From a virus, in IMG/VR virus record IMGVR_UViG_3300000116_000335, positions 1 through 20,196 of that record: a stretch of DNA of 20,196 nt, one strand, 5' to 3'. The translations under genes were made by a program, and so were the position numbers. The stretch's first letter is position 1. Every line of letters begins with the position of its first letter. Shown in pieces: positions 1-16,085 of the stretch. The notes beneath the pieces are model-generated. The model saw only the letters and a program-made list of their open reading frames with translations. It was not told the DNA's origin and ran no database searches.

Positions 1-1
1 T

Positions 2-325
2 AAAAGAAAAGATAAAGATGGTACAGAAGTTGTCGGTAATATAATTCGTTGTAAAAATTACAAGTCTAGAATTACAAAAGAAAATGAACAAGTAGATGTT
101 AGACTATCATATAAAACAGGTCTAGACAAATATTATGGACTTATAGACTTAGCAGAAGAATGTGGTATATTTAAAAAAGTATCAACAAGATATGAATTAC
201 CAGATGGCAACAAACAATATGCAAAAACAATAAATAATGAACCTGAAAAATATTTCACTAAAGAAGTATTAGAGAAGATTGATGAGTATGCAAAAAGAAA
301 ATTCACCTACGGAATCGAAGACTAA
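2..325 (+). CDS. uvsX: UvsX-like recombinase, C-terminal part (5' end outside window)
   Basis: The open frame enters from the left edge and stops with TAA at 323-325, leaving 107 residues. The stretch [20 protein letters not shown] matches the conserved C-terminal region of T4 UvsX (STGLDPYYGLLDLA type), the RecA-family strand-exchange protein that loads on ssDNA for recombination-dependent replication. The Walker motifs lie upstream, outside the window. The next small gene starts inside its last 45 bases and gp41 helicase follows, the same uvsX-40-41 order as in T4. The order and the motif agree, so I am fairly sure of the family; the N-terminal two thirds cannot be checked. Confidence 0.82.
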
Positions 326-614
326 ACCATATACCTTTGCACAAAGACAAGAAGATGATTATACTTGTATAAAACTTACAGAAGGTAAGTATGCAGAAGT
401 TATCTTTAAGTATGGCAATGTTGGGTTTAAAGAAGTAAAAGATTCAGAAAAACTTTCAGTAATATTTGATTATAATATTCTAAAAAATCCTAATGAAGTG
501 GACATTGATGAACAAGAGTTTATCGACCATATAGGTGATATATTAATTGATTTAGTTGAAGAACAATTAGCAACAGGTAAACTTGATTTAAAAATAGAGG
601 ATGTAAATGAGTGA
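282..614 (+). CDS. Conserved small protein in the T4 gene 40 position
   Basis: This is a 110-residue acidic soluble protein with no signal peptide or membrane segment. Possible starts are TTG 279, ATG 282 and ATG 288. ATG 282 is preferred because AGAGAAG at 271-277 sits four bases upstream; ATG 288 (ten-base spacing) is also possible. It overlaps the end of uvsX by 44 bases and gp41 by 8, so it is translationally coupled to both. T4 has a gene of almost the same length (gene 40, about 114 aa, linked to head-vertex assembly) at this position. I see no recognisable motif, so equivalence to gp40 rests on position and size only. The C-terminal half ([13 protein letters not shown]) looks helical. 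Confidence 0.75.
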
Positions 615-1983
615 TAGAATAGAAAGGATTATATTAAGAAATTTATTTTTCAATGAAGACTTTACAAGAAAGGTTTTACCATTTATCAAAGAAGAATTTT
701 TTACTAATCAAAATGAATCTAATTTGTTTGGCGAAGTATCTAACTTTGTACATAAGTATAAAAATCTACCGACAAAAGAAACAATTAATGTAGAATTAAC
801 TAAAAGAAAAGATTTAAGAGAAGATGAATTATCTCAAATTAAAACGATAATTGATGGTCTTAAACATGAAGAAGTAGAATTACAATGGTTATTAGATACA
901 ACAGAGAAGTTTTGTAAAGACCGTGCTGTACATAATGCAGTCTTACAAGGTATTCAAATTCTAGATGGTAAAGATAAGAAACAAAATCCAGAGGCGATAC
1001 CTCAAATTTTATCAGAGGCACTTGCAGTATCTTTTGATAATCATGTCGGTCATGATTATGTTGAAGACGCTGAATCAAGATTCGATTTCTATCACAAAAG
1101 AGAAAAAAGATTTAAGTTTGACTTAGATTACTTTAATAAGATTACTAAAGGTGGTGTGCCAAGTAAAACACTTAACATTGCCCTTGCAGGTACCGGTGTC
1201 GGTAAATCATTATTTATGTGTCATGCAGCCTCAAATTGGTTGTTACAAGGTAAAAATGTTTTATACATTACTCTTGAAATGGCAGAAGAAAGAATTGCAG
1301 AAAGAGTAGACGCCAATCTTATGGATGTTACTATAGATGATTTACATGTCATGCCAAAATCTATGTATGATAGTAAAATGTCTAAACTACAAAAGAAGAC
1401 AGTTGGTAAATTAATCATTAAAGAATATCCTACTGCTTCTGCTCATAGCGGCCACTTCAGAGCATTACTAAACGAATTATCATTAAAGAAAACATTTAAA
1501 CCGGATGTTGTATTCATAGATTATCTCAACATATGTGCGAGTAGTAGATTTAAAGGTGGCAATATATCATCATACTTTTATATAAAGGCAATTGCTGAGG
1601 AATTGAGAGGCCTTGCAGTTGAATTTGATATGCCTATTTTCTCTGCTACTCAAACTACAAGAAGTGGTTTTACAGCAACAGATATAGGTTTAGAAGATAC
1701 GGCAGAATCATTTGGTTTGCCGGCAACAGCAGACTTCATGTTTGCTCTAATATCTAATGATGAGTTAGAACAATTAGGTCAATTAAAAGTCAAACAATTA
1801 AAGAACAGATTCGGCGACCCAAGTATGAATCGTTCCTTTATAGTCGGTGTAGACCGTTCCAAAATGAGATTATTTGATGTAGAAGCGTCAGCTCAGAACA
1901 TTGTTGATAGTAATCAGACTGTAGAAGAAGAAAAGATAACACCGGAAGGTGCTTATGAGAAGTTCTCTGATTTCAAGTTATAA
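607..1983 (+). CDS. 41: Replicative DnaB-type helicase (T4 gp41-like)
   Basis: The 458-residue product is the expected size for T4 gp41, the hexameric 5'-3' helicase that works with the primase at the phage fork. An N-terminal helical region (1-150) precedes a RecA-fold domain. The Walker A motif AGTGVGKS lies at 194-201, followed by NVLYITLEMAEERIAERVDA, the DnaB-family H1a region. A Walker B strand, DVVFIDYLNI, lies near 300, and an SATQTTRSG sensor-type motif near 346. AGAGG at 596-600 is six bases before ATG 607, and the start overlaps the preceding gene by 8 bases. A late-promoter octamer spans its stop codon. Confidence 0.93.
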   Translation: MSDRIERIILRNLFFNEDFTRKVLPFIKEEFFTNQNESNLFGEVSNFVHKYKNLPTKETINVELTKRKDLREDELSQIKTIIDGLKHEEVELQWLLDTTEKFCKDRAVHNAVLQGIQILDGKDKKQNPEAIPQILSEALAVSFDNHVGHDYVEDAESRFDFYHKREKRFKFDLDYFNKITKGGVPSKTLNIALAGTGVGKSLFMCHAASNWLLQGKNVLYITLEMAEERIAERVDANLMDVTIDDLHVMPKSMYDSKMSKLQKKTVGKLIIKEYPTASAHSGHFRALLNELSLKKTFKPDVVFIDYLNICASSRFKGGNISSYFYIKAIAEELRGLAVEFDMPIFSATQTTRSGFTATDIGLEDTAESFGLPATADFMFALISNDELEQLGQLKVKQLKNRFGDPSMNRSFIVGVDRSKMRLFDVEASAQNIVDSNQTVEEEKITPEGAYEKFSDFKL

Positions 1984-1986
1984 ATA
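1979..1986 (+). promoter_or_regulatory. Candidate T4-type late promoter (TATAAATA)
   Basis: An exact TATAAATA octamer sits across the gp41 stop codon, inside the longer string TTATAAATAGTATCAT, which is repeated almost identically at 16096 and 6393. With T4-like geometry transcription would start near 1992, the A of the next start codon, giving a leaderless message. In sequence this AT-rich several octamers are expected by chance; the shared flank is what supports this one. Confidence 0.5.
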
Positions 1987-1991
1987 GTATC

Positions 1992-3203
1992 ATGCCTACT
2001 ATAAACAACATATCGGTATCGGATGCTGAATTTACAGGAATGCAAGAGCGTGCTACAGCATATATATGCAAGCGTGCTTTTCAAGACAACATAAAATTTT
2101 ATTCACCTGAAGATATAGTAAAAGATACAGTTACTAAAAGAAATCTTGAAGAATTATTTGTAAAAGGTGGTAAAAAACTATTTAAATTTAGTTTACCGAT
2201 AGAAACAAAAACGCCAGAAGACAAATGGTTAAATACTTTTTATGCTCAACAGAAAAAACTATTAACAGAATTTTCAGCCGCCAAGTTTACAGTATTTAAT
2301 AGAGATGGTGGTTTCATGAATTTTATATCAGAGTTAATAAATGATAGATATGGAATATCACAAAAAGATAGGTGGGACCCTGCTGATATATGGTTGATAG
2401 AAACAAAAGATAAGTATAGAGAACTTATTAAAAAAGAATTAGAAGGACCTAGTGAAACACAAAGTATATTAGAGTTAAATGCTATTATGAAAAAACTTTT
2501 CAAAGAAAGAAAAGTTGTAGGTCTTTCATTAAAATTAATATCAGGCAAAACTGCTAGATATGAAGAAGTAAATGTTAGTGATAAGTTTTATGATAGTTTA
2601 AAAGGTTATGATTATACTTTAGGAGATATTACTTGTAAACTAGGAGTAAAAAAAGATGGCACAGGACAACCTACTTTTGAAACCCAAGATTCAATTATAA
2701 CATTAAAAGGCACACGAGGACCTGTTGCTAAATTTCAAATAAAAGGAAATACTACAAGTAGATTATCAAATTTAAAATTTGAACCTACTGAAATAGGTGC
2801 AACATCAGCTAGATTAGGAAAAGCACCTTTAGAATTAGTAAAAAAACTTTCTGATTTCTATAACAAAAAATTATACAATAATAGACATCAAGACTTTCCT
2901 GTTGATTTAAAACAATTTAATAATAGAGAAAATGAGTTTGCTACAATTTTCATGAATATAAAAAATAAAGTAACATCAATCAATGTAAATACAAAAGAAG
3001 AATTTATAAAAAACATGAGAAAAGTTTTTAAAGGAAAAACTTCACATATTGCAAATGTAAAATTAATGCAAATTTATTTTATTGACCAATTACTAAAATT
3101 AAAAAAGAAAGAACAAGATGAATATCTAACAGACTTATTATTTTTAGCACAGAAAAAAGGTAATAAAGTTTTTGACTTTGGTCCTTTCGGTAAACTGTAT
3201 TAG
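1992..3203 (+). CDS. Unknown 403-aa protein with possible PD-(D/E)XK-like core
   Basis: I recognise this only as a type of protein found in marine T4-like phages; I cannot name its function. It is soluble and lysine-rich. Two blocks stand out: DRWDPADIWLIE (126-137) and VVGLSLKLISG (175-185). An acidic PADI strand followed by a G-[IL]-S-L-K strand is the sort of arrangement seen in PD-(D/E)XK nuclease folds (D132 and K181 as candidates), but the usual E/Q of the E-x-K pair is a serine, so this is a weak suggestion. No Shine-Dalgarno precedes ATG 1992; ATG 2040 (in frame) has AGGA directly abutting and is no better. A 187-base gap follows, so it ends the replication block. Confidence 0.7.
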   Translation: MPTINNISVSDAEFTGMQERATAYICKRAFQDNIKFYSPEDIVKDTVTKRNLEELFVKGGKKLFKFSLPIETKTPEDKWLNTFYAQQKKLLTEFSAAKFTVFNRDGGFMNFISELINDRYGISQKDRWDPADIWLIETKDKYRELIKKELEGPSETQSILELNAIMKKLFKERKVVGLSLKLISGKTARYEEVNVSDKFYDSLKGYDYTLGDITCKLGVKKDGTGQPTFETQDSIITLKGTRGPVAKFQIKGNTTSRLSNLKFEPTEIGATSARLGKAPLELVKKLSDFYNKKLYNNRHQDFPVDLKQFNNRENEFATIFMNIKNKVTSINVNTKEEFIKNMRKVFKGKTSHIANVKLMQIYFIDQLLKLKKKEQDEYLTDLLFLAQKKGNKVFDFGPFGKLY

Positions 3204-3319
3204 TATATTATTATAAAGTGAAACACGAAAAATAATTCAATACACAAGTTACCAAACTACTAAATAATAACAGAAATAATAAGATTTAATATCGTCCCTC
3301 AAAAATAGTCCATTCACAC

Positions 3320-3348
3320 TTGACTTTTTTTGTTCCTTACGATATAAT
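3320..3348 (+). promoter_or_regulatory. Sigma70-type promoter of the AlkB-like gene
   Basis: TTGACT (3320-3325) and TATAAT (3343-3348) are separated by exactly 17 bases. This matches host housekeeping consensus rather than the phage late TATAAATA type, so early transcription by unmodified host polymerase is likely. The start would be near 3355, giving a leader of roughly 36 bases. The rest of the gap, 3204-3319, holds nothing I can identify. Confidence 0.85.
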
Positions 3349-3376
3349 GCTTATTATAAACAATTAACTATTTGAT

Positions 3377-3382
3377 AGGAGG
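3377..3382 (+). promoter_or_regulatory. Consensus ribosome binding site (AGGAGG) of the AlkB-like gene
   Basis: A full AGGAGG lies eight bases before ATG 3391. It is the strongest site in the window, where most genes have only AGGA/GGAG or rely on overlap coupling. It fixes the start and implies high expression. Confidence 0.85.
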
Positions 3383-3390
3383 ATAATCAA

Positions 3391-4620
3391 ATGGGAAACA
3401 TTTTATTAAACCTTAGATACCTATTAGCACCTGTGTTAATCATAGTTGCTGGAGCAGGTGTCTTAATTGGTGGCATAATGGCATGGCTAGGAGTAGTTTT
3501 ACTATTCGTAGGTTTAATTGTCGATATCGCTACTAAATTTGAAACGACAGGCGTAGGATATGATAGCGAAGGCAATAGTTTGGGTTGGGCAAGTTTCCAA
3601 AACTTAACTATGTACTTCATGTTACCTATATTCGTTCTGTTTCAACTAGTAATGGCATGGAGATTAAATACTTACATGACACTAGGTGGGATGGAAGGCG
3701 AAGCAATTATGACAATTATTCCAGGCATATTAGTTATGTCTGAAGGAATAACTGGTCTTAACTTGATTGGCGCTACATTGTCATCTGGTATCTTTATTGG
3801 TATCGGAATTATCTATGGTCACGAACTAAGTCATACAAAAGGATTTGGATTCGTAATCTCTAGAACAATGATGGCACTATCGGGTTCAGCACATTTCTGC
3901 TACGCTCATGTATACAACCATCATCTAGAACTTGCAAGTGAAGATGACCCTGCTACGGCTCCAAGAGGTCGTACAATTTATGGTCATTACCCACTTTCAT
4001 ATCTAGGTCAATCAAAATTTCTATATAACATGGAAAAAGAAAGACTATCAAGAATGGGTGTATCATTCATTTCTTGGCAAAATCGCTGGATTAGAGGATA
4101 TCTAATGGCAGTACCTTCAGTTGCATTATTTTTTGCTGCTGGTGGTTGGGTAGGTATGGCTGTACTCGCAACAGTTTGGGGAATCTCAAACTTCGAGTTA
4201 GAAGCACTTAACTATCTAGAACACTATGGTCTTGTCCGTGTTAAAGACCAACCAATTGATTACAGACACAATTGGGATAACTCAACTGCTTTCACTTCTT
4301 GGTTCTTTATTGAAATCGGAAGACAGGCAGACCATCACGACAGAGGCGAAACTCATTTTTGGGAACTCGAAAATGTCGGATGTCCAAACACCGGTTGGGG
4401 TTACTTTGTAGTATTCTTTATTGCATTAGTACCACCAATATGGCATTGGTATATGAGAAAAAGATTGGCTGCATGGGATACACACTTTGCAACTGATGAA
4501 GAAAGAGCAATTGCTAGTAGAATCAATACAGAGGTAGGTTATGAAGGAACACCTTTTGTTGGAGATGTACTAGGGGATGCCGGTAATGTAGACCTCGGAA
4601 TGAGGGCTGCTAAGAAGTAG
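3391..4620 (+). CDS. alkB-like: AlkB-family membrane di-iron monooxygenase (alkane hydroxylase-like)
   Basis: The 409-residue integral membrane protein has about six hydrophobic segments (roughly 10-30, 30-47, 70-90, 105-140, 237-265, 336-353) and the histidine boxes of AlkB/XylM enzymes. These are HELSH (144-148), HVYNHH (173-178, followed by EDDPATAPRG, the counterpart of PEDPASSRMG), NYLEHYGL (274-281, essentially identical to the AlkB signature) and QADHH (312-316). AlkB hydroxylates terminal carbons of alkanes or related chains in the inner membrane, with electrons from rubredoxin. Differences from classical AlkB: the last box is normally RHSDHH, so one histidine is Gln312, and the first residue of EHxxGHH is Ala. 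There is no fused rubredoxin and none nearby. It has its own promoter, ideal RBS and terminator, so it is a monocistronic cargo gene. Family assignment is firm; the substrate is unknown and could be a fatty-acyl chain. Confidence 0.9.
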   Translation: MGNILLNLRYLLAPVLIIVAGAGVLIGGIMAWLGVVLLFVGLIVDIATKFETTGVGYDSEGNSLGWASFQNLTMYFMLPIFVLFQLVMAWRLNTYMTLGGMEGEAIMTIIPGILVMSEGITGLNLIGATLSSGIFIGIGIIYGHELSHTKGFGFVISRTMMALSGSAHFCYAHVYNHHLELASEDDPATAPRGRTIYGHYPLSYLGQSKFLYNMEKERLSRMGVSFISWQNRWIRGYLMAVPSVALFFAAGGWVGMAVLATVWGISNFELEALNYLEHYGLVRVKDQPIDYRHNWDNSTAFTSWFFIEIGRQADHHDRGETHFWELENVGCPNTGWGYFVVFFIALVPPIWHWYMRKRLAAWDTHFATDEERAIASRINTEVGYEGTPFVGDVLGDAGNVDLGMRAAKK

Positions 4621-4641
4621 AATAAGTATTTAATTACTTAG

Positions 4642-4669
4642 AAAGGGTCTCCTCGTGAGGCCCTTTTTT
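4642..4669 (+). terminator. Rho-independent terminator after the AlkB-like gene
   Basis: A ten-pair stem, AAAGGGTCTC (4642-4651) against GTGAGG/CCCTTT (4657-4666, read as GAGGCCCTTT plus one G), closes a five-base loop CTCGT. It has one G-U pair and is followed by Ts to 4669. It lies 21 bases past the stop codon and would isolate the gene from downstream. Confidence 0.88.
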
Positions 4670-4720
4670 ATGGGCAAATCAAATGAGAACCATTCTCAAC
4701 AAAATAAATGAAAAAATAGC

Positions 4721-4749
4721 TTGACATATGTTGTTTAGTCCTGTATAAT
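4721..4749 (+). promoter_or_regulatory. Sigma70-type consensus promoter of the DGQHR/HNH gene
   Basis: A perfect TTGACA (4721-4726) and perfect TATAAT (4744-4749) are separated by 17 bases. Transcription would start near 4756, about 57 bases before ATG 4813. It has the same architecture as the promoter at 3320, so the two cargo genes are independently but similarly driven, presumably early. Confidence 0.88.
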
Positions 4750-4812
4750 GGTATCATATCACGAGATATATAACTATTCCTTACTACGGTGAGGATTCAA
4801 CGAGGAGATAAA

Positions 4813-6369
4813 ATGACAACATTAATAACAGAAGCACCCAAAGTAACGCTTCTTTCAAACAAAGTTACTGAAGAATCTTTTGAAAAACCAGTAGATTGGC
4901 TTTTTCAAAAGTATATTAATAAAAAACTATTTTCTGATAATGAGAAAGTACAAAGGTTACTAATTGACTGGAAAGGTTATAAGATAAATTCTTATCTTAC
5001 AACACTACTCAATGGTATGCCTAAGAAGGATTCTTTCATATTAGCAGATATATCAAAAATCGTAGAAAGTATTAAGTCTGATATGGCTAAAAATACTGAT
5101 ACAGCTCTTGATGAATATTTTGAATTTAATTTAAAATATTTTTCTGATTTGGAAAATGAAGGTTATGAGTATTTAATTATTGATGGTCAACATAGAATTG
5201 ATACAATTTTTAAATATTTTGATAATCAAATAGACTTTAAACCTAAAACTTCAATTGAATATGGAATTGAAGGTGAATCTGGTAAAGTTAAAGTCGCTGG
5301 TAAATTTCAATCACTTGCTGTACCACCTGTAATGCAAAAATTACTTGATACAATGATACGAGTGGTAATTTATTCAACAGGTGATTTACAAGAGTTGGTA
5401 AATGTTTTTGTAACTAGTAATAGTCAAAAGGCTATGACACATCACGAAATAAGGATTATTAATTTCAATAAGAACAACCAATTCATTGTAAGATTATGTA
5501 AATCTACAACAAATATTATGAACATGTTTAAGTGTATGAAAAACATGACAAGTGATTACTCACTTGATTGTAAAGGTGATACATTATTTGCATGTGAAAT
5601 GTTATTGTGGACACATACTAATGATTATGAACATCAAACAGATACTCTAGATACAGCATTTGGTCCTGTTCTTGTAGATAAGAAAGATTATTATCCTCTT
5701 TATATACAACCTACTACTAGAAATCTAACTGAAAAGATTTTTAGAAAAATGGGTGATATTTGTAAACAATATCCTGGACTAAAAAACAAATTTGCTAGAG
5801 CTAGTTTTTATAACTTATATATGACATTAGCATTTTTCATGCAACCAACAAACAAGTTTGGTAAAGAAAAAGGTATTGCTGGTAACTATGAAGTTATAAA
5901 CGACAAACTATTTGCAAAGTGGTTTTTTGATGAAGAAAATAAAAGATTAAATGCAGTTGGTCACAAAATGACTTTTTCAAAACCTAATGGAAAAACTGGT
6001 GAACAATTACATCCTCTCTCATTTAAGGCTCATCAAAACGACCAGAAACATCAAAGTAAAAAGTCTGTTAAAGGAGATGGTGGTTCTAAATATACTTTTA
6101 ATGATTATGCTAGAATCAGATATCTTCTTGAAGACTTATGTCAAATGCTTGATGAATTTCAAACCAAGAAAATACTTCAAAAACTTGGTAGTAGAAGTGG
6201 TCTAACTAGAGCAGAAGCTGCTGTTGCACATGATATACCTTTATCAGAAACAGAAGGTAAACATCTTGATGAAATATTACCTGTTTCAAAAGGTGGCAAT
6301 AGAACAGTAGAAAATACACAGTTTGTGGATGCTGGTTTAAATATGAGAGATAGTAATAGTATTAAGTAA
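4813..6369 (+). CDS. DGQHR/DUF262 (ParB-like) protein with C-terminal HNH-like motif
   Basis: The 518-residue protein starts at ATG 4813, chosen over the in-frame GTG 4789 because GAGGAG at 4802-4807 is five bases upstream. YLIIDGQHRIDTIFKYF (DGQHR at 124-128) is the signature of the DUF262/DGQHR branch of the ParB-like fold, found in GmrS-type restriction subunits and DndB-like proteins. The last 37 residues read HLDEILPVSKGG...ENTQF...LNMRDSNS (484-516), an HNH-type pattern (DHIxPxSKGG...N...N). The usual catalytic His of D-H-I is Glu487 and there are no CxxC zinc pairs. The order, ParB-like then HNH, recalls GmrSD/BrxU-type type IV restriction enzymes that attack modified DNA. In a phage it might exclude competitors, degrade host DNA, or be a catalytically altered regulator. 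The family is likely; the activity is uncertain. Confidence 0.72.
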   Translation: MTTLITEAPKVTLLSNKVTEESFEKPVDWLFQKYINKKLFSDNEKVQRLLIDWKGYKINSYLTTLLNGMPKKDSFILADISKIVESIKSDMAKNTDTALDEYFEFNLKYFSDLENEGYEYLIIDGQHRIDTIFKYFDNQIDFKPKTSIEYGIEGESGKVKVAGKFQSLAVPPVMQKLLDTMIRVVIYSTGDLQELVNVFVTSNSQKAMTHHEIRIINFNKNNQFIVRLCKSTTNIMNMFKCMKNMTSDYSLDCKGDTLFACEMLLWTHTNDYEHQTDTLDTAFGPVLVDKKDYYPLYIQPTTRNLTEKIFRKMGDICKQYPGLKNKFARASFYNLYMTLAFFMQPTNKFGKEKGIAGNYEVINDKLFAKWFFDEENKRLNAVGHKMTFSKPNGKTGEQLHPLSFKAHQNDQKHQSKKSVKGDGGSKYTFNDYARIRYLLEDLCQMLDEFQTKKILQKLGSRSGLTRAEAAVAHDIPLSETEGKHLDEILPVSKGGNRTVENTQFVDAGLNMRDSNSIK

Positions 6370-6380
6370 TTTCTATCTTA

Positions 6381-6442
6381 ATGTAACGAATCTTATAAAT
6401 AGTATTGTCGTTGTGAATAGTACATTTATGGATTCGTTATAT
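6381..6442. repeat. Inverted repeat flanking a late promoter
   Basis: TAACGAATC at 6384-6392 is the exact complement of GATTCGTTA at 6431-6439. Allowing one G-U pair the match extends to 12 (6381-6392 with 6431-6442), with 38 bases between. The late-promoter octamer starts two bases inside the left arm. It could be an operator, a long-range mRNA hairpin, or chance. Confidence 0.45.
6394..6401 (+). promoter_or_regulatory. T4-type late promoter upstream of the ligase-like gene
   Basis: TATAAATA lies within CTTATAAATAGTAT, shared with the site at 16097. The predicted start is near 6407, 58 bases before ATG 6465. It sits at the head of the long overlapping late operon (6465-16085), with GGGAG at 6456-6460 serving as RBS. 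Confidence 0.75.
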
Positions 6443-6464
6443 ATATGGAACAATTGGGAGACAC

Positions 6465-7676
6465 ATGTTTAGTTTTAAAGGATACCAGACTAAGGCAAAG
6501 AATAAGCACTTAGAACATTTAGAAGACCAGATTATAGACAATGGTTCTCAAGGTGGGAAAAATGCAGTTAATTTTCTAGTTGCAATTCGCAACATGCTAA
6601 AAGGTTCATCAAGTAGTAAAGTCAATATGACTGTTAAGTGGGATGGTGCCCCAGCAGTTATCTGTGGTATTAATCCTGAAAACGGCAAATTCTTTGTGGG
6701 TACTAAATCAGTATTCAACAAAACACCTAAAATAAACTATACAGTTTCAGATATAAACAGAAATCATTCAGGTGTACTTGCAAGTAAACTTGCAGTATGT
6801 TTATCACAATTAAAAAAAATAGTAACTAGTGGTGTATATCAAGGTGATTTACTATTTACATCAGGTGATGTTAAAACAGCAATCATAGATGGCCAAAGTC
6901 AGTATACATTTACACCTAATACTATTACATATGCAATGCCAACAAATTCATCAATAGGTAGCAAAATTAAAAGTGCAAAACTTGGTATAGTCTTTCATAC
7001 AAAATATTCAGGTAGAACTATGCAAAGTTTAACAGCAGGTTTCGGAACAGTAAGAGGTGGTGGTGGTCGCAATGTGTATCTTGCTTCAGCAGGTTACAAA
7101 GATACCTCAGGCTCATCTAAATTCACATCAACAGAATTATCTAGATTCAATGGACTAATTGCAATGGCAAAAGGTTCATTATCAAAAGCAGGTCCTATGT
7201 TAGATAAAATGAATAGTAGAGATTCAACATCAGTAGGTTATAGATTAAAAACATTTTTCAATTCTGTAATTAGAAATGGTTCAGGTGGAATGGGTAAAGT
7301 CAAAACACTACAAGGACAATTTAGAGATTACTATGAAAGTTTTATTAATGCAGAAATATCTGCTAGAAAGACAGTCGCAGGTAAACAAAAATTTATACAG
7401 GCAAAAAAAGATAATTTAAAATTTATAGATAAAAATCAAACGGCATTGTATTTTGCAATTGCAAGTCATGTCAGTTTAGCAAATGCAAAGAATTTCTTAG
7501 TAAGTAAACTATCACAAATACAAAGTATAGGACACTTTCTAAAAACATCAAATGGGTACAAGGTAACAGCGCCTGAAGGTTTTGTCGCAGTAGACAGAAC
7601 TGCTGGTGCAGTTAAACTTGTAGATAGACTAGAATTTAGTCGTGCAAATTTCCAGATGGATAAGGACTGGGGTTAA
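6465..7676 (+). CDS. Ligase-like covalent nucleotidyltransferase (KxDG family)
   Basis: The 403-residue protein carries the motif series of ATP-dependent DNA/RNA ligases and capping enzymes. These are TVKWDGAPAVICG (motif I, candidate AMP-accepting Lys58), FVGTKSVFN near 77-85, VYQGDLLF near 124-131 (motif III type), PEGFVAVD at 370-377 (motif IV) and GAVKLVDR at 381-388 (motif V, Lys384). Motifs III and IV are far apart, implying a large insertion. Related proteins occur in marine T4-like phages, usually without a function. The N-terminus, MFSFKGYQTKAKN, resembles the capsid-targeting-type peptide of its neighbours, though the expected Glu (YxTE-A) is Lys. It is the first gene of the late operon; a kinase gene begins 2 bases past its stop. 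I infer RNA or DNA end joining; substrate unknown. Confidence 0.7.
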   Translation: MFSFKGYQTKAKNKHLEHLEDQIIDNGSQGGKNAVNFLVAIRNMLKGSSSSKVNMTVKWDGAPAVICGINPENGKFFVGTKSVFNKTPKINYTVSDINRNHSGVLASKLAVCLSQLKKIVTSGVYQGDLLFTSGDVKTAIIDGQSQYTFTPNTITYAMPTNSSIGSKIKSAKLGIVFHTKYSGRTMQSLTAGFGTVRGGGGRNVYLASAGYKDTSGSSKFTSTELSRFNGLIAMAKGSLSKAGPMLDKMNSRDSTSVGYRLKTFFNSVIRNGSGGMGKVKTLQGQFRDYYESFINAEISARKTVAGKQKFIQAKKDNLKFIDKNQTALYFAIASHVSLANAKNFLVSKLSQIQSIGHFLKTSNGYKVTAPEGFVAVDRTAGAVKLVDRLEFSRANFQMDKDWG

Positions 7677-7677
7677 T

Positions 7678-8280
7678 GTGAAAAGTTTTAAAAAATTTGT
7701 AAAAGAAGAAGTACCTGGAATACAAATGAGAATCATTATGTTAGGTGGACCTGGTTCAGGTAAATCAACATACTCTAAATTCTTAACTAAAGAATTTTTA
7801 ATACCTCATGTATACACAGGTGATATGATGAGAGATTTAGCAAAACAAGATACACCAACAGGTCGTAAAGTTAGAAGTGCATTAGACAAAGGCGATTATG
7901 TTGATACTAAAATTGTACTAAATACATTACAAAAAAGATTATCTAGAAAAGATACAGAAAGAGGATATGTATTAGATGGTTTTCCTAGAAGTATGGAACA
8001 AGTAAAAGAAATGGAAGACAGAAACATAGGGTATGACCATGCAGTCTATTTAGATGTTGCAGAAGAAGAAGTCATTAGAAGATTAATGTCTAGAGGTCGT
8101 GCAGATGATAAACCTGACATTATAAAAAATAGAATTGCAGTATATAAAAAACAAACACAACCTGTTATAAATTATTATAAAGATAAACTTATAACTATCA
8201 AGGCAAAAGGTGGTGAAGAAATAGAAGACATTGCAAGTTTAATTATAAAACAGATTAAGGATAAAGATGAAAGAATTTAA
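7678..8280 (+). CDS. adk-like: Adenylate kinase-like enzyme with N-terminal targeting-type extension
   Basis: The start is taken as GTG 7678, directly after the previous stop; an upstream in-frame ATG at 7642 would overlap the ligase-like gene. The 200-residue product has GGPGSGKST (23-31), YTGDMMRD (NMP-binding), YVLDGFPRS (the adenylate kinase signature), SRGRADD and a short LID of the zinc-free type, then YKKQTQPVINYY. Adenylate kinase interconverts ATP+AMP and 2 ADP. A normal enzyme would begin at Met17 (MRIIMLGGPGSGKST). The extra 16 residues, starting VKSFKKFVKEE, match the MKxFxxF peptide shared by the surrounding genes, which suggests targeting to the prohead. It overlaps the next gene by 14 bases. 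A phage-borne NMP/dNMP kinase role is possible. Confidence 0.85.
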   Translation: MKSFKKFVKEEVPGIQMRIIMLGGPGSGKSTYSKFLTKEFLIPHVYTGDMMRDLAKQDTPTGRKVRSALDKGDYVDTKIVLNTLQKRLSRKDTERGYVLDGFPRSMEQVKEMEDRNIGYDHAVYLDVAEEEVIRRLMSRGRADDKPDIIKNRIAVYKKQTQPVINYYKDKLITIKAKGGEEIEDIASLIIKQIKDKDERI

Positions 8281-15617: not shown

Positions 15618-16085
15618 ATGATAATATATTGTGATATGGATGGAGTCCTATGCGACTTTGAAAGACAATGGGCTCGTGTAGCCGGTGTACCTTTCACCCA
15701 ATTTGCAAAAATGAGTTTATATGACAGGTGGGAACCAGTCAGAAAACATGGTAGTTTTTGGGAAACCATACCATGGAAAGGTGATGGTAGAGCATTATGG
15801 TCTTATATTAGAAAACATGATGTTCGTATCTTATCAGCATATTCATCATCTGATTCAAACTGTTTACCAGGTAAAAGAAAATGGTTAAACAAAAATGTAT
15901 CAATAAATGCGGCTAAGGTACATATAGTAACAAGAAGTCAAAAACAAATCTATTCAAAGAAAAACACTATACTTATTGATGATTACTCAAAGAACATTCG
16001 AGAGTTTGACCGTAAAGGTGGTAAGGGTATACGACATAGAAACACATCTCAAACAATCTCAGAACTTAAAAAACTAGGTTTATAG
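15618..16085 (+). CDS. HAD-family 5'(3')-deoxyribonucleotidase-like phosphatase
   Basis: The 155-residue protein has the HAD motif I at the very start, IIYCDMDGVLCDF (Asp6 nucleophile, Asp8 acid/base). A motif II/III region follows, RILSAYSSSD...GKRKWL, and motif IV is ILIDDYSKNI. The arrangement DxDGVxxDF with a small cap is typical of 5'(3')-deoxyribonucleotidases (NT5C type), which dephosphorylate dNMPs, and such genes are common in T4-like marine phages. It has no targeting-type leader, unlike the kinases upstream. It closes the late operon; the next transcription unit starts 12 bases later with its own late promoter. Class is well supported; substrate not proven. Confidence 0.85.
   Translation: MIIYCDMDGVLCDFERQWARVAGVPFTQFAKMSLYDRWEPVRKHGSFWETIPWKGDGRALWSYIRKHDVRILSAYSSSDSNCLPGKRKWLNKNVSINAAKVHIVTRSQKQIYSKKNTILIDDYSKNIREFDRKGGKGIRHRNTSQTISELKKLGL

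Follow-up and report, generated by a model that had tools for sequence, protein, structure and literature searches.

An AlkB-fold monooxygenase gene of a T4-like phage, with a proposed role in methylated-sulfur oxidation

The window, that is the whole stretch of DNA analysed here, is a 20,196-base virus record of a T4-like phage. Its plus strand carries, in this order, genes for a UvsX-like recombinase, the gp41 helicase, a PHROG 1462 protein, an AlkB-like membrane enzyme, a DGQHR/GmrSD_N-like protein, a DUF6267 protein and an adenylate kinase (Table 1); no tRNA was found in the window. The genes downstream of the AlkB-like gene had been taken for a late operon in the first-pass annotation, but for the genes found there (DGQHR/GmrSD_N-like, DUF6267, adenylate kinase and others) this is a conjecture. 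In the Methylophilales phage Melnitz the DUF6267 gene follows directly after gp41 and one other gene, without alkB. The adenylate kinase (window 7642-8280; Pfam ADK 4e-41) is full-length and 74-93% conserved in several related contigs, and it is an unusual gene for a T4-like phage. A 5'-deoxyribonucleotidase-like gene (PHROG 2643, 8e-29) is present at 15618-16085.

Table 1. Positions of the AlkB-like gene, its signals and motifs, and the neighbouring genes in the window
Feature	Position	Strand	Basis
T4 gp41-type replicative helicase, upstream anchor of the insertion site	607..1983	+	PHROG 19, 4e-128; 65% to Methylophilales phage Melnitz
PHROG 1462 protein, left neighbour	1992..3203	+	7e-82; 92% in contig L026
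Sigma70-type promoter, TTGACT-17-TATAAT	3320..3348	+	11/12 match
AGGAGG ribosome-binding site	3377..3382	+	Direct reading; kept in gp41-site relatives with upstream sequence
AlkB-fold membrane di-iron monooxygenase (predicted), RQxDHH subfamily, 409 aa	3391..4620	+	ORF, Pfam, PDB, AF2 model
HELSH motif (H144, H148) = FtAlkB H137/H141	3820..3834	+	Alignment; ligands from PMC10113152
HVYNHH motif (H173, H177, H178) = FtAlkB H167/H171/H172	3907..3924	+	Alignment; PMC10113152
EHYG motif (E277, H278) = FtAlkB E271/H272	4219..4230	+	Alignment; PMC10113152
RQADHH motif; Q312 in place of FtAlkB ligand H311, H315/H316 kept	4321..4338	+	Alignment
H322, subfamily-only invariant	4354..4356	+	61/61 subfamily rows, 0/5 outgroup rows
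Intrinsic terminator hairpin, 12-bp stem, 5-nt loop, T-run	4640..4668	+	-16 kcal/mol, z -2.5
Second sigma70 promoter, perfect TTGACA-17-TATAAT, for the next gene	4721..4749	+	12/12
DGQHR/GmrSD_N-like gene, variable slot right of the cassette	4789..6369	+	Weak family matches; 92% in contig L029
DUF6267 protein, right anchor of the insertion site	6465..7676	+	1.7e-118

The AlkB-like gene had been described as a complete cassette of promoter, gene and terminator, and this description holds. Each of the 17 viral contigs that have the gene at the gp41 site and enough upstream sequence shows, at -64 to -71, a promoter with 10-12 of 12 matching positions and a 17-nt spacer, while shuffled upstream sequences give such a promoter in 0.15-1% of cases per contig. 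The arrangement was also said to be unlike that of the neighbours; the gene does have its own promoter and terminator, but the next gene possesses its own, perfect promoter as well, so the arrangement is less exceptional than first claimed. That the gene is richer in G+C than its surroundings was confirmed: its GC3 of 0.281 is about 5 s.d. above the 0.199 +/- 0.016 expected from the codon usage of the window, and is the same as in bacterial homologues. Relatives retain the block 3198-4633 whole, while its neighbours are exchanged; the PHROG 1462 slot holds different genes in contigs other than L026. Between the cassette and the DUF6267 gene (window 4634-6392) lies a variable slot where relatives carry quite different genes (x206/x193, x429, x199), and which looks like a cargo-exchange spot.

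The 409-aa product matches the Pfam family FA_desaturase (PF00487; 2.3e-28, 100.1 bits against a gathering cut-off of 29.7), and its sole sequence relatives in the PDB are two FtAlkB entries (7e-29 and 6e-26). An AF2 model built from 66 related sequences (pLDDT 88, pTM 0.88) superposes on the structures of Fontimonas thermophila FtAlkB/FtAlkBG over 355-357 residues (8f6t, Z 39.5; 8sbb, Z 35.7), although the identity in this fold alignment is 23-24%. These two were also the only significant matches in Foldseek. The score to the stearoyl-CoA desaturase SCD1 (4zyo) is only 4.7, thus the model does not show an SCD1-like acyl desaturase fold; the folds of AlkB and SCD1 are known to differ (PMC10110569). 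From the difference between these scores we conclude that the phage protein has the AlkB fold, and its identity as an AlkB-fold oxygenase is practically certain. The earlier claim of a full-length AlkB-like enzyme borne by a phage is therefore upheld. We also checked whether the protein falls into an unrelated family without di-iron chemistry, and found the AlkB fold together with metal-site motifs; judging from these, the protein very probably works as a di-iron oxygenase.

The irons of FtAlkB are bound through nine histidines and Glu271 (PMC10113152), and the nine histidines of AlkB are reported to be invariant and indispensable (PMC10110569). The phage protein shares with FtAlkB the motifs HELxH, HxxxHH and EHYG, eight of the nine ligand histidines and the glutamate, which stands beside the HYG histidine in 66/66 aligned rows. 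The ninth, the Fe2 ligand H311, is replaced with Gln312 in all 61 subfamily rows, the phage protein included, while the position is a histidine in 5/5 more distant AlkB-type rows. By the nine-histidine criterion this change places the subfamily outside AlkB, its AlkB fold notwithstanding. Three additional histidines, H168, H199 and H322, are invariant in the 61 subfamily rows; among the five outgroup rows H168 and H322 occur in none and H199 in one. H322 could serve as a substitute iron ligand. This RQxDHH subfamily is discrete, with full-length matches at E <1e-120 inside it and >1e-70 to other AlkB relatives.

The closest cellular genes, 83-92% identical over the full length and with the same motifs (L082-L091, L098), come from MAGs and single-cell genomes, about 1 Mb in size, of marine gammaproteobacteria. 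Where they differ from the phage gene is in their setting, an operon-like cluster (GST, reductase, porin-like protein, methanethiol oxidase) with another promoter and terminator. Further bearers are Methylophaga, Thiobacillus, Thiodiazotropha, Porisulfidus and other mostly sulfur-oxidising bacteria. Recurrent neighbours of the cellular genes are a truncated globin, GST-like proteins (in 32 of 80 bacterial loci), a BenC/MmoC-type 2Fe-2S/FAD/NAD reductase (Fer2/FAD/NAD) and a small membrane protein, to which NorD/NorQ-type proteins are added in the Methylophaga group. The NorQ/NorD pair (a CbbQ-type AAA ATPase and a VWA protein) is divergent beside the oxygenase (L113:1771-4687, L149, L210:6160-9068) and may load or activate its metal centre. 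In the type-A order the oxygenase is followed by GST, reductase, a 90-aa membrane protein, a FadL-like porin, methanethiol oxidase (MTO, SBP56), SCO1-MauG and a thioredoxin-like protein. MTO was located about 4.4-4.7 kb downstream of the oxygenase in 6/6 close type-A host loci with 5 kb of sequence, and such a grouping of MTO with SCO1 and MauG is already known (PMC5739008).

Oxygenase and MTO also occur together across genomes. The 57 Methylophagaceae genomes comprise nine with both genes, two with the oxygenase only, two with MTO only and 44 with neither, so that MTO is present in 9/11 genomes with the oxygenase vs 2/46 without it (p 3e-7), and in a class sample of 369 genomes it is present in 12/13 bearers of the subfamily vs 36/356 others (p 7e-11), these p-values being guides only since related genomes were treated as independent. 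The two Methylophagaceae genomes with the oxygenase and no MTO are possibly incomplete drafts. In the one exception of the class sample (G002) the contig ends 3.4 kb after the gene, before the expected position of MTO. SoxB was considered as the linked function too, but its association is weaker (10/13 vs 141/356; p 0.009, likewise a guide). Together with the BenC/MmoC-type reductase and the sulfur-oxidising or DMS-degrading habit of the bearers, the linkage to MTO points to methylated sulfur rather than alkanes as the field of action. The reading we prefer, at a probability of roughly 55%, is that of a phage auxiliary gene whose AlkB-fold subfamily belongs, in bacteria, to a cluster for methylated-sulfur (DMS/methanethiol) oxidation and most likely converts DMS to methanethiol and formaldehyde. 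A role in a methylated-sulfur pathway is somewhat better than an even bet.

The first-pass annotation had proposed instead a hydroxylase of alkanes or acyl chains working with rubredoxin, that is a true phage AlkB which gains energy or carbon by oxidising hydrocarbons or fatty acyl chains. The AlkB fold and the eight retained ligand histidines are in accordance with such an enzyme, and the FadL/TodX-type porin of the cellular clusters would suit alkanes too. We nevertheless consider it unlikely, given the invariant exchange of H311, the discreteness of the subfamily and the strong linkage to MTO, which was found in only 5/29 genomes with only distant AlkB relatives. AlkB has rubredoxin as its partner, whereas the cellular subfamily genes are clustered with a 2Fe-2S/FAD reductase, and a search of 20 viral records, mostly fragments, gave no match to rubredoxin (PF00301).

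Expression data come from Methylophaga thiooxydans, whose first DMS enzyme is unknown (PMC6548844). Strong induction on DMS, compared with methanol, is reported there for MTO, for a “fatty acid desaturase” (MDMS009_226), for a porin and for the flavin reductase MDMS009_61 (PMC6548844). One of our genomes, G459, has an MTO ORF at 256503-257906 of contig C25 (local 13504-14907 in L210), and these are the coordinates printed for MTO MDMS009_211 (256503:257906 of scaffold 1104571000268; PMC6548844), which identifies G459 as M. thiooxydans DMS010. Its subfamily gene (C25:247669-248847, 392 aa, 61% identical to the phage protein) adjoins its reductase on the same contig, 8 kb from MTO (MTO cluster 1). 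Only two FA_desaturase-family genes were found in this genome, the other one on contig C9, and the MTO-cluster tags on scaffold 1104571000268 run from 97 to 284, bracketing 226 (PMC6548844); the desaturase count and the tag range therefore make it very probable that MDMS009_226 is the subfamily gene. The phage protein would then share with MDMS009_226 its subfamily, while the latter is cellular, 392 aa long, near MTO and induced by DMS. Against the preferred reading, Boden et al. (cited in PMC6548844) detected no DMS monooxygenase activity in M. thiooxydans and suggested a methyltransferase; a membrane enzyme could have been missed.

That DMS itself is the substrate we put a little short of an even chance. 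Counting against the preferred reading are the two of 11 MTO-bearing Methylophagaceae that lack the oxygenase and the two genomes that have it with no MTO found. For some bearers, such as Thiodiazotropha and sponge symbionts, use of DMS is not known; the enzyme may therefore act on a different methylated or reduced sulfur compound. An oxygenase for methanethiol, dimethyl disulfide or glutathione-bound sulfur species, with the GST-like proteins handling substrate or product, would fit the frequency of GST-like genes, the presence of SoxB in 15/23 bearer genomes and the several paralogues per genome, which suggest more than one substrate. This is about as improbable as the alkane hydroxylase, because MTO already handles methanethiol and a separate oxygenase for it would be redundant, and it is for DMS that induction was reported (PMC6548844). 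Three or four subfamily paralogues each are present in three sulfur-oxidiser genomes (G012, G015, G086), some without MTO nearby, and a diversification of substrates is possible there.

In PMC6548844 MDMS009_226 was read as serving lipid maintenance. Accordingly, the phage enzyme could be a desaturase or hydroxylase of membrane lipids that protects or remodels host membranes during the H2O2-making oxidation of methanethiol, and both the Pfam match and the induction of MDMS009_226 together with catalase on DMS (PMC6548844) would agree with this. The structural match to AlkB and not to stearoyl-CoA desaturase stands against it, and the clustering with porin, GST and reductase looks catabolic; we regard a lipid role as still a shade less probable than the two preceding alternatives.

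Returning to the oxidation of methylated sulfur, we infer substrate, reaction, timing of expression, host and benefit to the phage as follows. In the window's phage the gene would be transcribed from the host-type sigma70 promoter, which by itself suggests early expression. The oxygenase would hydroxylate a methyl group of DMS, and the unstable product would fall apart into methanethiol and formaldehyde; host MTO, followed by host sulfur and C1 pathways, would then yield electrons. Genes of the partner proteins (GST, reductase, globin, porin, MTO) were absent by BLAST from 82 viral loci, and a scan of viral contigs gave no MTO relative. Because the phage brings only the oxygenase, its electrons would be supplied by the clustered 2Fe-2S/FAD/NAD(P)H reductase of the host. 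Small-genome marine gammaproteobacteria, the finest level that we reached, are the probable hosts.

Phage auxiliary genes and AlkB-fold enzymes are both known kinds. The cyanophage gene psbA tops up one bottleneck enzyme, and the phage oxygenase would resemble it in this respect. Another phage auxiliary gene, rdsrA of SUP05 phages, belongs to sulfur oxidation. DmoAB is a flavin-linked soluble enzyme. The DMS monooxygenase DmoA of Hyphomicrobium (PMC13360808, PMC6548844) would catalyse the same overall reaction from DMS to methanethiol, if the DMS hypothesis is right, but it belongs to a protein family unrelated to the AlkB-fold oxygenase, and dmoA is absent from Methylophaga genomes (PMC6548844). 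A viral MTO has also been reported (PMC11018836). Like rdsrA and viral MTO, the oxygenase would supplement a sulfur-oxidation step of the host; it differs from them in the class of enzyme and in the step, being a membrane monooxygenase that depends on O2 and would act before MTO. We found no precedent in open-access papers, PHROGs, NCBIfam or BFVD for a phage's own oxygenase from a separate AlkB-fold subfamily with ties to MTO; the three databases gave no match to the protein, and the open-licence literature yielded no paper on a phage AlkB or an AlkB-type DMS enzyme.

Among the biogenic sulfur gases that leave the ocean, DMS is the main one. A wider hypothesis, tentative and held at slightly less than even odds, is that the RQxDHH subfamily is the missing first DMS enzyme of Methylophaga and marine sulfur-oxidising gammaproteobacteria, and that marine T4-like phages keep and move their own family of this gene, so that infection alters the oceanic DMS sink. 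If so, a long-standing gap in Methylophaga becomes testable, and one of the key steps of the DMS sink is also carried by phages. The gene deserves attention even if the DMS claim is set aside, for its occurrence in at least 199 viral contigs, its several independent captures, its two alternative sites and promoter types and its changed metal site; current annotation would label it “alkane monooxygenase” or “desaturase”.

In IMG/VR at least 199 stretches encode relatives, at several genome sites. Besides the site seen in the window, between gp41/PHROG 1462 and DUF6267, there is a second one in related T4-like phages, flanked by the genes for the major capsid protein (gp23) and the tail tube (PHROG assignments; for example L046:9494-10720, plus other gp23-site loci). 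Many copies at this second site are preceded by the T4-type late promoter sequence TATAAATA, from which they are probably transcribed. Both sites are empty in Melnitz, the nearest isolate. Two copies per phage were not seen; the 44-kb L012 record has the copy at the gp41 site and none after gp23.

Chimeric assembly at the cassette edges was checked and rejected. Contig L026 aligns unbroken with window 1-4624 and L029 with 3198-6980, both at about 86% identity, so that each junction is crossed by an independent contig. The gene is under purifying selection in phages, with dN/dS of 0.04-0.12 both among phage copies and in comparisons of phage with bacterial copies, and the silent distance to the bacterial copies (dS about 1.5-1.9, near saturation) speaks against recent contamination. 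A tree of codon-aligned DNA groups 34 of the 35 close phage genes into a single clade (100/99) next to the bacterial genes; copies from both sites are intermixed within this clade, which indicates one old capture, after which the gene moved among phages and from site to site. The protein tree had suggested that phages captured the gene from hosts repeatedly and recently; for this close group that is rejected, the DNA tree giving one clade with the exception of L030, and a single clade of all 35 phage rows was not rejected by an AU test (p 0.165). The L030 gene (L030:4720-5961) is a mosaic whose 5' part is about 96-100% identical to a Saanich Inlet bacterial allele (L084) and whose 3' part is phage-like; it could be a phage-host recombinant, and with it a host link, or a chimeric contig.

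The gene is a cell-derived metabolic gene in a replicated phage context and under selection, and this context, the dN/dS values and the phage clade mark it as probably an auxiliary metabolic gene. A passenger without benefit to the phage, or an artefact of assembly or binning, might be suspected from the metagenomic origin, the frequent exchange of cassette neighbours and the L030 mosaic, but is strongly disfavoured by the replicated junctions, the low dN/dS, the separate phage clade and the promoter conserved in 17/17 contigs.

More distant phage copies adjoin a ribonucleotide reductase gene, terminase or neck genes and fall in other parts of the tree, which indicates several captures. Annotated phage records contained two weak 32% matches and no named phage gene of this kind. 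A gene annotated alkB1, at 32% to the protein, is present in records named Acinetobacter phage MD-2021a (CAKLQH020000011.1:17450-18151 and CAKLQF020000009.1:30444-31145); it could belong to host DNA or represent a phage AlkB of separate origin.
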